Positions 49,595-60,958 of a DNA stretch of 64,000 nucleotides are shown here, in pieces. The position numbers and the translations under genes were made by a program. The first letter of the stretch is position 1; each line of letters opens with the position of its first letter. The notes beneath the pieces were generated by a model. It was not told the DNA's origin. It was given only the letters and a program-made list of their open reading frames with translations, and made no database searches. The stretch is from assembly GCA_030386875.1 (NCBI GenBank), contig CM059564.1, positions 39,886,075 to 39,950,074 of the forward strand, read 5' to 3'. This DNA is from Morinoia aosen (lineage: Eukaryota > Arthropoda > Malacostraca > Amphipoda > Talitridae).

Positions 49595-50080
49595 GTGCAC
49601 ACACACTTGGCGTGTGGGGTACAATGCACACACACATGACGTGTAGGGTATAATGCGCACACACATGACGTGTGGGGTACAATGCACACACACGTGGCGT
49701 GTGGGGTACAATGCACACACACACATGACGTGTGGTGTACAATGCACACACACATGGCGTGTGGGGTACAATGCACACACACTTGGCGTGTGGGGTACAA
49801 TGCACATACACATGACGTGTGGAGTACAATGCACATACACATGACATATGGGGTACAATGCACACACACATAACGTGTGGGGTACAATGCACACACACAT
49901 GGCGTGTGGGGTACAATGCACACACACTTGGCGTGTGGAGTACAATGTACACAAACATGCCGTGTGGAGTACAATGCACCCATACATGACGTGTGGGGTA
50001 CAATGTACAGATACATGACGCGTGGGGTACAATGCACACATACATGACGTGTGGGGTACAATGCGCACACTTGACGTGTG
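49595..50080. repeat. 29-bp minisatellite, about 17 copies
   Basis: The unit is ACAATGCACACACACATGAC followed by GTGTGGGGT. Most units are exactly 29 bp; one near 49708 has 31 because of an extra CA. The repeats touch with no spacers. Three overlapping minus-strand frames of 165-175 codons come from the 29-bp period cycling through all three frames with no stop. Confidence 0.95.
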
Positions 50081-53937: not shown

Positions 53938-54022
53938 AATTGACAGCGTTGAAATAGTTACTCATTGATTGACAGCATGAAATAGTTACGCATTGACTGA
54001 CAGCGTTAAAATAGTTGCGAGT
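53938..54022. repeat. Three tandem copies of an about 27-30 bp unit
   Basis: ATTGACAGCGTTGAAATAGT, ATTGACAGCATGAAATAGTT and ACTGACAGCGTTAAAATAGT follow one another. Confidence 0.85.
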
Positions 54023-57069: not shown

Positions 57070-59049
57070 TCATATATAAATAAGGTCGTGCGTTGTGAGA
57101 TGCTTCAGAGAATCTATTGCCTGTTGTAGCTCTTTCTGAGCCTGTAGAGCGTGAGGGGAGGTATAGAGAGCAGGCGAACTGCCGCACGGACCTCGCGAAG
57201 TAGCAGCTGTGGTGCTCGACTGAGAAGGTGCTTGTGTCGAGACAAAATTTTCTCTTCTGCTAAAATAACTTTGCACAGCATCTTTTGGATTTTTTTCTTC
57301 AGATGATTTGCTCTGAAGTGAAATTTCAACTTTGCTCGAAGGGTCTGAATGACATTCGGGGACGTCGTTTTCTTTGCGCTGAGTTGAGGGGAAACTACTT
57401 CTGCGTAATGTCGTGTTCGTGTTGATGTTCGGAAGAAAATAGAAATTTCGGGCTTCCTTTGGAGTCATCGGTGGTGGAGAGGTAGCAGGCAGGGGTGGAG
57501 GCGGTGGTGAAGGGGACGGTGACTTTATAGATGAAATAATAATTCGTGAATTATTTTCTGACCTATTTGACGGTTCAGCTACTTTACCATTTGAATGTTC
57601 TCGTTGTGTATCTAGTTCAGCAGATTGGTGTTCCTTGACTATGAGTGGTGCGGCGCAATTCGACTTCCAAAGCTCTTTGGCTTCTTCGGCTATACGAACG
57701 GGACTTATTTCTAGTGGCGTTCTTTTAACATTCGCATGTAGGCGCGGGGGAACAGCGGGAGGTACCGGCAATTTAAGTTTCTGCGAAGAAATCAATTTCA
57801 AAGTTTTCGGAGTTATAGTATCGAGCTCAATATTTGAAATGGATGGATTCTGAGTTTTTGCTTGTGGTTCATCGATATTTACTTCGCTTACGACAAAATG
57901 CCCTTCACTCGAAGTGGGAGTTGGAGTTGACGACGTTGACTTGTGCCGTTCTGAATATTTGTTATTTGAAGATGCAGTGGGGGAAGGAGTCGTTAAATCT
58001 GAAACCAACGAGGCGTACGAAACTTGCGAAACAGGAGAAGACGCCGGAGATGTGTTGTACTGAGAAGAAGCTGAAGGAGATTGCAATTGTTTGTAAATGA
58101 CTTCTCTGATAATCGGAGTGGACTTTGATGACGTCAGGTGGGTGGGTCTGCTGGTGACAGGTGGCGGTCGTGGTGTTCGAGTGAGGTGTGAGGGCGAAGA
58201 AGTTTTTAGTTCCTCCGTCGGCTGTTGTTTTTTGTCTTTTATTTCAAATGTTTGACGGTTTTCATCTGAATCTTCGCAAGTAAAAGACAAAGCTTTGCTT
58301 CTACAACCCCCACCCGTGTCGACACTCAAATTTAAACTGGAATTTTGACTTCCGGAGTCTTTAGACTCTGAATCTTTTATTGCTACTTGTGTTGATGCAA
58401 TTTGTGTAGATGTGATTTGTGTTGATGTGAGTTGTGCTGCTTTTTGTGAGTTGGAGTTTCTGAAAAACTTTCTGGGAGGCGGTGGAGGTACTTCTTTCTG
58501 ATCATGTATTTCACAGCTAGACAGATTAGCCACATTCAATTCTCCAGATGATAAACATTTAGTTTCTCGATTCTCTCTTTCTAGTTTCTTGGCATCGATG
58601 TCCTCTTTCTTGTTCAGCATAGATTTGCTGAACCCAGATTTTGGTTCGTACTTTTCATTCGCCCTCACCAGAGTGGGTGTCGAAGAAGGGGAGTGGGGGA
58701 GGCCCCGCAGGGGAGGCGTTTGGGGTTGGGGGGAGGAAGCCACGGAAGAAAACCCAGAATCGCAAGAGACTCTCGATGAGTTTTGAGGAGTAAAGTAATT
58801 ATTTCCTGTCGAGCCTGGGTTTGAGCAAGAGGAGGAAGTCGAGGAGGTTGAAGATATAGATGACCTATTAGATGGCAAGCACGGCGTTACCATCAAATTA
58901 GGTTTTTGGACTAGCTTCGGTGAAGGAATTAAGCCGGGGTTTTTGTATATAGATGATGTTAAGCGGATGGCAGGCATTGGTAGTTGATCGTCCAATTCAG
59001 ATTCAGTGTCTGTGCTTGACGTTTCCACTGACGTCACTCTCCAGAATTG
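57070..59049 (-). CDS. rau: Rau-like protein, long last exon: disordered Ser/Pro-rich tail and C-terminal PDZ ligand
   Basis: This exon encodes 659 residues from QFWRVTSVETSSTDTESEL to the stop at 57070-57072. It starts after a TTTTTCCCTTCCAG acceptor in phase 0; the codons read upstream of 59049 are intron. The segment is rich in Ser, Thr, Pro and Asn, with no globular domain visible, and is probably disordered. Motifs seen: a DSGFSS phosphodegron-like site (58744-58761), VPPPPPRKFF, PVPPAVPPRLH and a poly-Pro run before PMTPKEARNF, all plausible SH3 or WW ligands, and a short repeat of TSTQI. A helical stretch (LQAQKELQQAIDSLKHL) precedes the end. The final residues LIYI fit a class II PDZ ligand (hydrophobic-x-hydrophobic-COOH), as reported for Drosophila Rau. 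With the two upstream exons, 856 residues are visible; one or more 5' exons are missing or uncertain. Confidence 0.75.
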   Translation of the reverse strand, partial: QFWRVTSVETSSTDTESELDDQLPMPAIRLTSSIYKNPGLIPSPKLVQKPNLMVTPCLPSNRSSISSTSSTSSSCSNPGSTGNNYFTPQNSSRVSCDSGFSSVASSPQPQTPPLRGLPHSPSSTPTLVRANEKYEPKSGFSKSMLNKKEDIDAKKLERENRETKCLSSGELNVANLSSCEIHDQKEVPPPPPRKFFRNSNSQKAAQLTSTQITSTQIASTQVAIKDSESKDSGSQNSSLNLSVDTGGGCRSKALSFTCEDSDENRQTFEIKDKKQQPTEELKTSSPSHLTRTPRPPPVTSRPTHLTSSKSTPIIREVIYKQLQSPSASSQYNTSPASSPVSQVSYASLVSDLTTPSPTASSNNKYSERHKSTSSTPTPTSSEGHFVVSEVNIDEPQAKTQNPSISNIELDTITPKTLKLISSQKLKLPVPPAVPPRLHANVKRTPLEISPVRIAEEAKELWKSNCAAPLIVKEHQSAELDTQREHSNGKVAEPSNRSENNSRIIISSIKSPSPSPPPPPLPATSPPPMTPKEARNFYFLPNINTNTTLRRSSFPSTQRKENDVPECHSDPSSKVEISLQSKSSEEKNPKDAVQSYFSRRENFVSTQAPSQSSTTAATSRGPCGSSPALYTSPHALQAQKELQQAIDSLKHLTTHDLIYI
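57073..57084 (-). other. C-terminal class II PDZ ligand (LIYI)
   Basis: The last four codons before the stop give Leu-Ile-Tyr-Ile. Ile at 0 and Ile at -2 meet the hydrophobic-x-hydrophobic class II PDZ rule. Drosophila Rau is described with the same class of C-terminal motif, which is one of the two reasons for the gene call. Confidence 0.6.
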
Positions 59050-59284
59050 CTGGAAGGGAAAAATTTGCAAAGTGTAAGCTGTTCTATTCACAATGAAATA
59101 ATAATATGGTTAATATTCAGAACATTTAGATGGTATTTCATCGAAGTATAAGTTTACATCAAATGCAACAAATGGACTAAAAATTAATGGCAAGACCACT
59201 TGATTTTTCCTAAACTTAGCCCGCGAACGTCAAGAAACTTCCTTTCACAGTTAACCAACCCATTTTTACCATTGTAGCACTCAC

Positions 59285-59542
59285 CCGCTTCTCTATGAGG
59301 CCTTGCGTCAAGCTCCTGCGCAAAACAAAGGAATACTTGTCCCTCCTTTCTTTCGGCCACGACGCCTGGATCTGAAGGGGGCTTTCTTCAGAGCCGAGCG
59401 GTCGGTCGTGATACGGCTCCGCGCAGCTCTCATGCAGCGTGAAGAGGCGACAGTCGTCTGCTCTGTTGTTGCAGTTGAGCAGCAAGCGGACAACCTCTGT
59501 CGCTGAGCTCGTGTACGACACCAGCAGAGATTTGTACTGCGA
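59285..59542 (-). CDS. rau: Rau-like protein, exon encoding the body of the second RA domain
   Basis: This exon encodes 86 residues beginning SQYKSLLVSYTSSATEVVRL and ending SLTQGLIEKR. It carries the second strand (YKSLLVS), the first helix (ATEVVRLLLNCNN), the CRLFTLHES strand, the acidic-to-basic loop and the closing YSFVLRRS strand of an RA domain. Joined after LTPG of the preceding exon it completes the fold. The acceptor is TTTCCTTTAG; a second AG six bases later (TCGCAG) could remove Ser-Gln without changing the frame. The donor is GCGG|GTGAGT. Both boundaries are in phase 0, matching both neighbouring exons, which strongly supports a real three-exon chain. The base composition is GC-richer than its surroundings. 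An RA fold is recognisable by pattern; which GTPase it binds cannot be read from the sequence. Confidence 0.72.
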
Positions 59543-60100
59543 CTAAAGGAAACAAAAAAGACGAACAGTTTATTTCCGATAAAGTTGATGCATGAAATGT
59601 ATACGGTTGCTTTGAAAAAAATCTTACAGTAAGATCCTTAGTTGATATACACACATGGATATCGTAATACCCATGTCCATTTTCGAAACAAATGATTGAG
59701 GGAGAAGCATGGAAATCTCATTCTTTTTTGTGTTAATCTTAGATTGATAATGCATGCGAATATAAATACTATAAAAAATACAAGTTACGTATTGATATAA
59801 ACGCTCTTGTTAGTTAGCATGTACATTTACGTGCTAGCTTAAGAACTTGCAATAAAAGGGCTGGGAAGCGTGCGAGCAAAATGAAAGTTTACACATTGTT
59901 TAGTACGCCTTTAGTGCGGTTCTTGTTGCCAGTATTTAATAGATTACAAGTTTGAGTAGAGCAGTGTTTATGGACCATCTACAGTGTTTGATTAGGTTAG
60001 GTGTTGGTATTTTTTTCCATAAATTTGACAAAAATTATTTCCAACTCCACAAAAATGACCACAATAATAATCTGAAAAATTTAAAGCAAAAAAATTTCCG

Positions 60101-60661
60101 CCTAACTCCGCACTCACCCCCGGCGTGAGGACGCTGTATACAGCGCACCCTCAGCACCCCGCTCCCACCCAACTCCACAGTCACCCCCGGCATGAGGACG
60201 CTGTCGCGCACCCTCAGCACCCCGCTACCACCCAACTCCACACTCACCCCTGGCGTGAGGACGCTGTCGCGCACCCTCAGCACCCCGCTACCACTCAACT
60301 CCACACTCACCCCCGGCATAAGGACGCTGTCGCGCACCCTCAGCACCCCGCTACCACCCAACTCCACACTCACCCCCGGCGTGAGGACGCTGTCGCGCAC
60401 CCTCAGCACCCCGCTACAACCCAACTCCACACTCACACCCGGCGTGAAAACGCTGTCATGCACCCTCAGCACCCCGCTACCACCCAACTCCACACTCACC
60501 CCCGGCGTAAGGATGCTGTCGCGCACCCTCAGCACCCCGCTACCACCCAACTCCACACTCACCCCCGGCGTAAGAACGCTGTCGCGCACCCTCAGCACCC
60601 CGCTACCACCCAACTCCACACTCACCCCCGGCGTGAGGACGCTGTCGCGCACCCTCAGCAC
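60101..60661 (-). repeat. 63-bp tandem array amplifying a 5' splice site, nine copies
   Basis: On the minus strand each unit carries 36 bp of coding sequence (VLRVRDSVLTPG or a near variant) followed by 27 bp that begins GTGAGTGTGGAG. The unit is exactly 63 bp, 21 codons, and is open throughout. Donor GT dinucleotides recur at 60625, 60562, 60499, 60436, 60373, 60310, 60247 and 60184, and in the ninth copy at 60117. Copy 8 has GTGACT instead of GTGAGT. Copy 9 contains a 4-bp insertion (TGTATACAGC replacing GACAGC), which shifts frame and makes its spacing 67 bp. Single substitutions distinguish the copies (for example VLMPG in copies 6 and 8, HDSVFTPG in copy 4), so the array is not a simple assembly stutter. 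Confidence 0.93.
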
Positions 60662-60958
60662 GCCCCCGCGCCGCATGGTCACGCTGAAGTTGGCCTCCCC
60701 CCGGGGGCGGCACTGCTGCAGCTCGACAGGGCGCGCCGAGTCCTCCAGCAGGAAGCGCCTTTTGACGGGCGGCGCCCCCGCGGGGCCCTTGACTGCCACC
60801 TCGAGCACCACCGCAAACAGGTTCGGGTCGCGGTGCTTCAGTCGCAGCTTCTGCAGCAGGTGCTCGATGAGCTGGCGACACGTGGTCGTCGCGTCCATGC
60901 GGATCGTCTTGTACTCGATGTCGGGGCGCAACTGGCGGAGGTGAATCCGCACAGCGGT
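60626..60958 (-). CDS. rau: Rau-like protein, exon encoding the first RA domain and the first strand of the second
   Basis: This exon encodes 111 residues, starting TAVRIHLRQLRPDIEYKTIR. Residues about 3-98 read as a Ras-association domain: a basic first strand (RIHLRQL), a Thr-rich turn, helix RQLIEHLLQKLRL, then FAVVLEV and RRFLLEDSARPVELQQCRP. RA domains bind GTP-loaded Ras-family GTPases. The last 12 residues, VLRVRDSVLTPG, look like the first strand of a second RA domain that continues in the next exon. The exon is bounded by a CTCCTCAG acceptor before 60958 and a GTGAGT donor after 60626, both in phase 0. It is strikingly GC-rich beside AT-rich introns. Its last 36 bp are the exonic part of a 63-bp tandem array, so several other donors lie downstream and the true exon end could differ. 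The identity as rau rests on domain order, not on alignment. Canoe/afadin also has two RA domains but continues into FHA, DIL and PDZ domains that are absent here. Confidence 0.72.

Follow-up and report, generated by a model that had tools for sequence, protein, structure and literature searches.

The window, the whole 64,000-nt stretch of Morinoia aosen DNA analysed here, corresponds to C9:39886075-39950074 of a genome of 1.99 Gb in 29 contigs. On its minus strand lies a gene encoding two RA domains, in which the end of one exon, the adjoining splice donor and the start of the intron are repeated in tandem. The features of the locus are listed below, with a slash in donor motifs marking the exon end.

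60626-60958, minus strand: RA1 exon, 333 bp, 111 codons, phase 0-0, coding for an RA domain and for the first strand of the RA domain that follows
59543-60625, minus strand: intron, about half of it array units 2-9, with donor and acceptor read from the sequence
59285-59542, minus strand: RA2 exon, 258 bp, giving the Pfam RA stretch at 99-188 of the joined protein
57070-59109, minus strand: long open frame, 679 aa, Ser/Pro-rich, probably containing the next exon
60104-60661, minus strand: minisatellite of 63 bp x 8.8 copies (TRF score 954), the unit being exon end, donor and intron start
60620-60625, minus strand: donor 1, GGG/GTGAGT, the probable main donor, with a single donor at the equal place in relatives L003 and L015 and the joined product in L013
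60179-60562, minus strand: donors 2-8, in frame, with GT at 60562, 60499, 60436, 60373, 60310, 60247 and 60184
60112-60117, minus strand: donor 9, with a strong core, frame-shifting at +508 nt and giving a premature stop if used, as read from the sequence

The 63-bp array, with exon end, GTGAGT donor and intron start in its unit as originally predicted, is real, TRF finding a period of 63 with 92% matches and a score far above chance. The RA1 exon includes the exonic part of array unit 1. The two-exon protein matches Pfam RA (PF00788) in two stretches (E 5.7e-29; 101 bits against a curated cut-off of 21). The 679-aa open frame matches no Pfam profile at E of 0.1 or below, and comparison of 57070-59079 with a second genomic copy 915 kb away gives 25 differences (17 nonsynonymous, 8 synonymous) with no indel and no new stop. 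Two identities for the gene were rejected. The matches to DIL, at least three in an exon-by-exon search, sit on C2 and C6, which disagrees with an Afadin/Radil type (RA plus DIL), and among at least 13 DAGK matches none lies near C9:39 Mb, C9:75 Mb or C15:32 Mb, which disagrees with diacylglycerol kinase theta.

A GT donor is present in all nine units and GTGAGT in eight. The core GGG/GTGAGT is identical in seven of the nine donors (1, 2, 3, 5, 6, 7 and 9) and scores 87.9 on a position table, with U1 pairing of -12.3 for the GGG/GTGAGT donors, donor 1 included, and -11.5 for donor 9. In the proposed ladder of near-identical donors, donor 4 (GGT/GTGAGT) and donor 8 (GGG/GTGACT) are weakened. 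Positions 60626, 60563 and 60500, put forward as splice junctions, do mark the final exonic base for donors 1, 2 and 3. The exon reading frame continues without a stop through donor 8, and the predicted step of 21 residues holds for the eight in-frame donors, that is, for seven 63-nt steps. The last step fails, and with it the claim of nine in-frame copies: unit 9 contains a 4-nt length change, the GT of donor 9 is at 60117, and its use would add 508 nt (508 mod 3 = 1), shifting the frame and reaching a stop after the join to the RA2 exon. That the intronic part is stop-free, another element of the original prediction, is correct through donor 8 but reflects one founding event for the 27 intronic bases and not nine independent cases, only 0.08 nonsense changes being expected among 15 unit variants.

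At the protein level, every added step would read VSVELGGSGVLRVRDSVLTPG or a near variant, and each isoform would end in a new copy of the first strand (VLRVRDSVLTPG-like), which then runs into SQYKSLLV. Since the extension repeats the first RA2 strand, the extra copies could be read as a longer RA1-RA2 linker, and the earlier placement of the added residues between the first and second strands of RA2 becomes doubtful. A single-sequence AlphaFold2 model of the read-through exon predicts regular strands throughout the repeat, where pLDDT by block is 84-95 from residue 121 onward, and has low confidence in its RA1 part. Near-perfect repeats modelled without an alignment can receive artefactually high confidence, and such strands are weak evidence.

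The array has a second copy at C9:39030957-39031517, in a near-identical locus and also of nine units; the array is thus not a local misassembly of one place, both copies coming from one assembly rather than from an independent one. The two neighbourhoods are collinear with a shift of about 915 kb, in pieces 95.6-98.9% identical except for a 1.5-kb piece at 88%, and one further alignment row comes from an out-of-register match of the array to itself. As to the extent of the duplication, the counterpart of a probe at 39.45 Mb lies at 38.51 Mb, and probes at 39.25 and 38.40 Mb landed on multi-copy repeats. The region C9:39203619-39250600 is a multi-copy unit; near-identical copies of it occur on many contigs, in some cases spaced about 5.8 kb from one another. 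A dispersed element at least 470 bases long, with internal similarity in inverted orientation, is present at C9:38400001-38400600, and its many listed copies are about 95-97% alike. A kinase search with 135 matches yielded, by hand count, at least 12 same-contig pairs having near-equal scores and the same or nearly the same profile range, compared by score and range and not by DNA; the members lie 0.35-15 Mb apart, in one pair on opposite strands. Same-contig pairs of this type make retained haplotypes the likely cause, the two arrays then probably being alleles. The direct duplication at C9 of about 38.5-40 Mb probably represents two haplotypes kept in one assembly, a recent tandem duplication being a possible origin of the 915-kb copy instead.

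Units 5 and 6 stand in the opposite order in the second copy. Same-position difference is 1.6% over units 1-8 and 0.8% once these units are swapped back, and the mean difference within the array is 6.2%. Unit-specific variants are common to both copies in units 3, 4, 7, 8 and 9, in addition to a few private ones, and unit 9 has one base different between copies; none of the 333 positions of the RA1 exon and one of the 258 of the RA2 exon differ. Length alleles had been suggested as a possibility for this array, and the likely second haplotype likewise has nine units, with variation in unit order instead. Seven arrays of at least four copies were compared by their flanks, and two of the six others do differ in length. 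Elsewhere in the window, minisatellite copy numbers differ between the genomic copies at 49596-50070 (16.3 versus 9.3) and at 53939-54016 (2.7 in the window versus 32.7 in the other copy, whose position is matched only approximately).

A paralogue (L003, with its own copy L004) is found on the opposite strand 159 kb away. It matches the RA1 exon at 92% identity over 324 bases, and the match ends at GTGAGT; neither the paralogue nor its copy has an array at the donor, a single donor being present at the same position. Identity along the exon is patchy. Its first 81 bases contain 26 differences; its last 252 contain 7, all of them silent, and include an identical run of 134 bases. The RA2 exons of the two genes, ungapped, differ at 95 of 258 positions. 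The stretch 60626-60877 (1293-1544 of L003) looks like the outcome of gene conversion between inverted paralogues, extending as far as the donor, where homology ends. Relative L015 carries GGG/GTGAGC at the donor 1 position, and relative L013, which has no intron there, reads VLAQG-SQYKSLLVS, the counterpart of the donor 1 product. Given one donor in L003/L004 and L015 and the intronless product of L013, donor 1 most likely gives the ancestral protein. Over 30 kb around the paralogue, matches to the window side consist of the RA exons plus short weak repetitive-looking matches. A dispersed repeat or transposon was rejected: the search with array DNA gave at least four matches including itself, the others being the second copy of the array and exon ends of 50 bases in the paralogue and in the paralogue's copy.

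Arrays carrying splice sites occur at other exons as well. In a relative on C15 (L016; C15:31925330-31928497) a second donor array, 52 bp x 6.8, lies at 1175-1527 at the end of an RA1 exon of another RA gene, the amplified exon end being ...AAAAATG/GTGAGAAAC. It contains eight donor-like copies, one without GT, and its unit length is out of frame. Read in the exon frame, unit 2 reaches a stop ahead of donor 2. The strongest donor is the last, at 31926465, which scores 90.3 against 84.9 for donor 1 at 31926822. Being out of frame and with this stop before donor 2, the C15 array has only its first donor to avoid a stop. Related C9 genes matched by the DAGK profile, which are of a third kind, display 88-bp arrays at 364-640 of L057 and 730-1180 of L060 (C9:51.78 and 51.67 Mb), with units carrying the acceptor and exon start (...TTTGTGCTGCAG/ACGACGCACTCGGCCACG), and a 30-bp array adjoins the acceptor in L056. 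Donor arrays and acceptor arrays are both present, and either type of boundary has been amplified.

The sample comprised 18 exon matches from DAGK, DIL and RA searches and eight RA-family exon matches, 26 in total, the 18 being assumed to be working exons; L054 has stops inside its match. Splice-site-carrying arrays are found at 4 of the 26, with at least three origins, or at 3 of 25 without the given array, and the rarity claimed for such arrays fails in this genome. TRF coverage is 1.9-6.9% in five C9 blocks and 11.6% near the 18 exons, from which 1-6 of 52 exon ends would lie inside arrays by chance. The four found among 52 have P = 0.017 at 1.9% coverage, 0.25 at 4.9%, 0.49 at 6.9% and 0.87 at 11.6%; as there is an excess only at the lowest coverage, no enrichment is claimed.

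Constraint on the units was assessed with the 15 distinct variants found in units 1-8 of both copies, a number with low power against weak constraint. Coding selection was not seen among them, 8 being nonsynonymous and 7 silent against 8.9 nonsynonymous expected from a random placement of changes of these types (P = 0.39), nor was donor preservation, 3 of the 15 falling within the 9-nt donor against 2.1 expected. Between the copies, array units 2-9 differ at 9 of 504 positions versus 1 of 591 in the two RA exons (Fisher P = 0.007), a contrast that hinges on how the unit swap is counted: with the 5/6 swap removed, the array differs at 5 of 504 and the contrast with the RA exons is not significant (P = 0.10). 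Against the nearby intron (14 of 2,094), the 9 of 504 give P = 0.03 with the swap counted in.

The array is probably a tolerated minisatellite at a splice junction, a 'mirage', spliced mainly at donor 1. Support for this comes from its presence in two copies, the single-donor relatives, the lack of visible constraint on the units and the other junction arrays, and from the usual dominance of one site among human tandem sites (PMC8055015) and the undisturbed splicing of amphioxus mirages in RT-PCR (PMC3087553). In a genome rich in minisatellites, slippage or unequal exchange would probably account for the tandem amplification of the RA1 exon/intron boundary at its own site. The spliceosome would mainly take the exon-adjacent donor 1, and units 2-9 would be spliced out as part of the intron. 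Donors 2 and 3 may yield at most minor forms longer by 21 and 42 residues, comparable to those of human IFI6. The array could persist because the exon body and donor 1 are unaffected when whole units are gained or lost, and its spread would cost little because the exon-adjacent donor stays. The C15 array, in which the first donor alone avoids a stop, argues for use of donor 1 despite its stronger last donor. Against this, donors 2, 3, 5, 6, 7 and 9 equal donor 1 in core and score, and some could be used; donor 9 being nearly as strong as donor 1 in U1 pairing, it is position that would have to give donor 1 its dominance. Where 5' splice sites have been duplicated in experiments, the intron-proximal one has reportedly often been favoured, which also counts against donor 1.

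A functional splice ladder, in which several in-frame donors are meaningfully used, the RA1-RA2 linker grows in 21-residue steps and Ras-family binding is altered, appears unlikely although it has some points in its favour. Six of the eight in-frame donors (1, 2, 3, 5, 6 and 7) have the same strong core and each extension ends with a copy of the first RA2 strand, yet no coding or donor constraint was detected among the units (at low power), donor 9 would poison the message, and the C15 array has the same architecture with in-frame stops. The AlphaFold2 strands in the repeat, at pLDDT 84-95 from residue 121, are consistent with a ladder, but such confidence for near-perfect repeats without an alignment is possibly artefactual. 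A precedent exists in human IFI6, where two downstream repeat units are used as donors besides the first (PMC4526556). Nothing in the unit-variant, donor or domain analyses suggests a tuned protein function. Quite unlikely, too, is the broader proposition that splice-junction minisatellites are common in this genome on both donor and acceptor sides and that some, including the 63-bp array, are spliced as in-frame ladders adding 21-residue beta-rich steps between two RA domains. Regulated unproductive splicing, with use of donor 9 or read-through lowering expression via nonsense-mediated decay, is very improbable: donor 9 keeps GGG/GTGAGT and would lead to a stop in the next exon, and later C15 donors would give stops too, but donor 9 shows no sign of special conservation, unit 9 differing by one base between copies. 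An assembly artefact, that is, a false expansion of one donor, is hardly credible even for an assembly that is not fully resolved and by hand count seems to retain many duplicate blocks, probably haplotypes, as both copies have nine units with shared unit-specific and few private variants, as expected of real, separately assembled sequence.

The tolerated minisatellite favoured here has counterparts in other animals. Amphioxus mirages are reportedly the subject of a work by Canestro from 2002. In amphioxus Adh3 and globin genes, mirages are minisatellite-like tandem duplications at exon-intron boundaries; either boundary is amplified, units measure 10-72 or 150-160 bp and many carry splice signals, RT-PCR suggests that regular splicing is undisturbed, and haplotypes of unequal length occur in one gene (PMC3087553). 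Arrays of the same kind having been described there already (PMC3087553), amphioxus also speaks against the claim of rarity. Like these mirages, the 63-bp array spans an exon-intron boundary and its units carry splice signals. Unlike them, it is found in a genome of about 2 Gb in which (TTAGG)n is abundant, its unit length of 63 bp is divisible by three, and its frame stays open as far as donor 8. Haplotypes differ in length in one mirage gene; here there are nine units against nine with the order of 5 and 6 swapped, in copies that are probably haplotypes. The mirage kind seems not to be confined to cephalochordates; among the papers listed in a mostly open-access search of the minisatellite and tandem-splice-site literature, in one case 20 of 393, no arthropod junction minisatellite appeared.

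Turri is said to have described in 1995 a minisatellite with multiple splice donors in IFI6 (6-16, G1P3). Its repeat unit is 12 bp, and its repeat donors keep the reading frame. As in IFI6, one exon end has several donors that come from repeat units, and donors 1-8 here are likewise in frame, although donor 9 is not. Unlike IFI6, the unit is 63 bp and not 12 bp, and use of multiple donors is reported for IFI6 whereas the donors here are known from sequence. The predominant IFI6 product is the 130-residue form, and splicing also takes place at two repeat donors further downstream, making three donors (PMC4526556). The TERT intron 6 VNTR is a minisatellite able to affect splicing via RNA pairing from more than 1 kb away from the junctions (PMC3948165) and, unlike the 63-bp array, is not a donor ladder. 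Among human tandem splice sites, as covered in the available parts of the source, one major site usually dominates, the upstream one of similarly strong sites is favoured, the strength-matched passages mainly concerning acceptors, and the commonest tandem donor shift is 4 nt (PMC8055015). The array resembles these in its closely spaced competitors; a minisatellite origin is not mentioned in those parts of PMC8055015.

The presence of near-equal donors in one gene could serve as a natural test of spliceosome choice among equal sites, since donor 1 in the window faces equal donors up to 0.5 kb away, and donor 1 in the C15 relative is weaker than the last donor there. Should junction minisatellites prove common in this genome, they may also provide raw material for new exons or introns, as has been proposed for amphioxus globins (PMC3087553). 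Within the genome the abundant (TTAGG)n, which with the CpG level of the window points to an arthropod host, gives 15,492 overlapping matches, and no telomere array was found at seven contig ends of four contigs. The CpG value of the window, 0.98, is near expectation.
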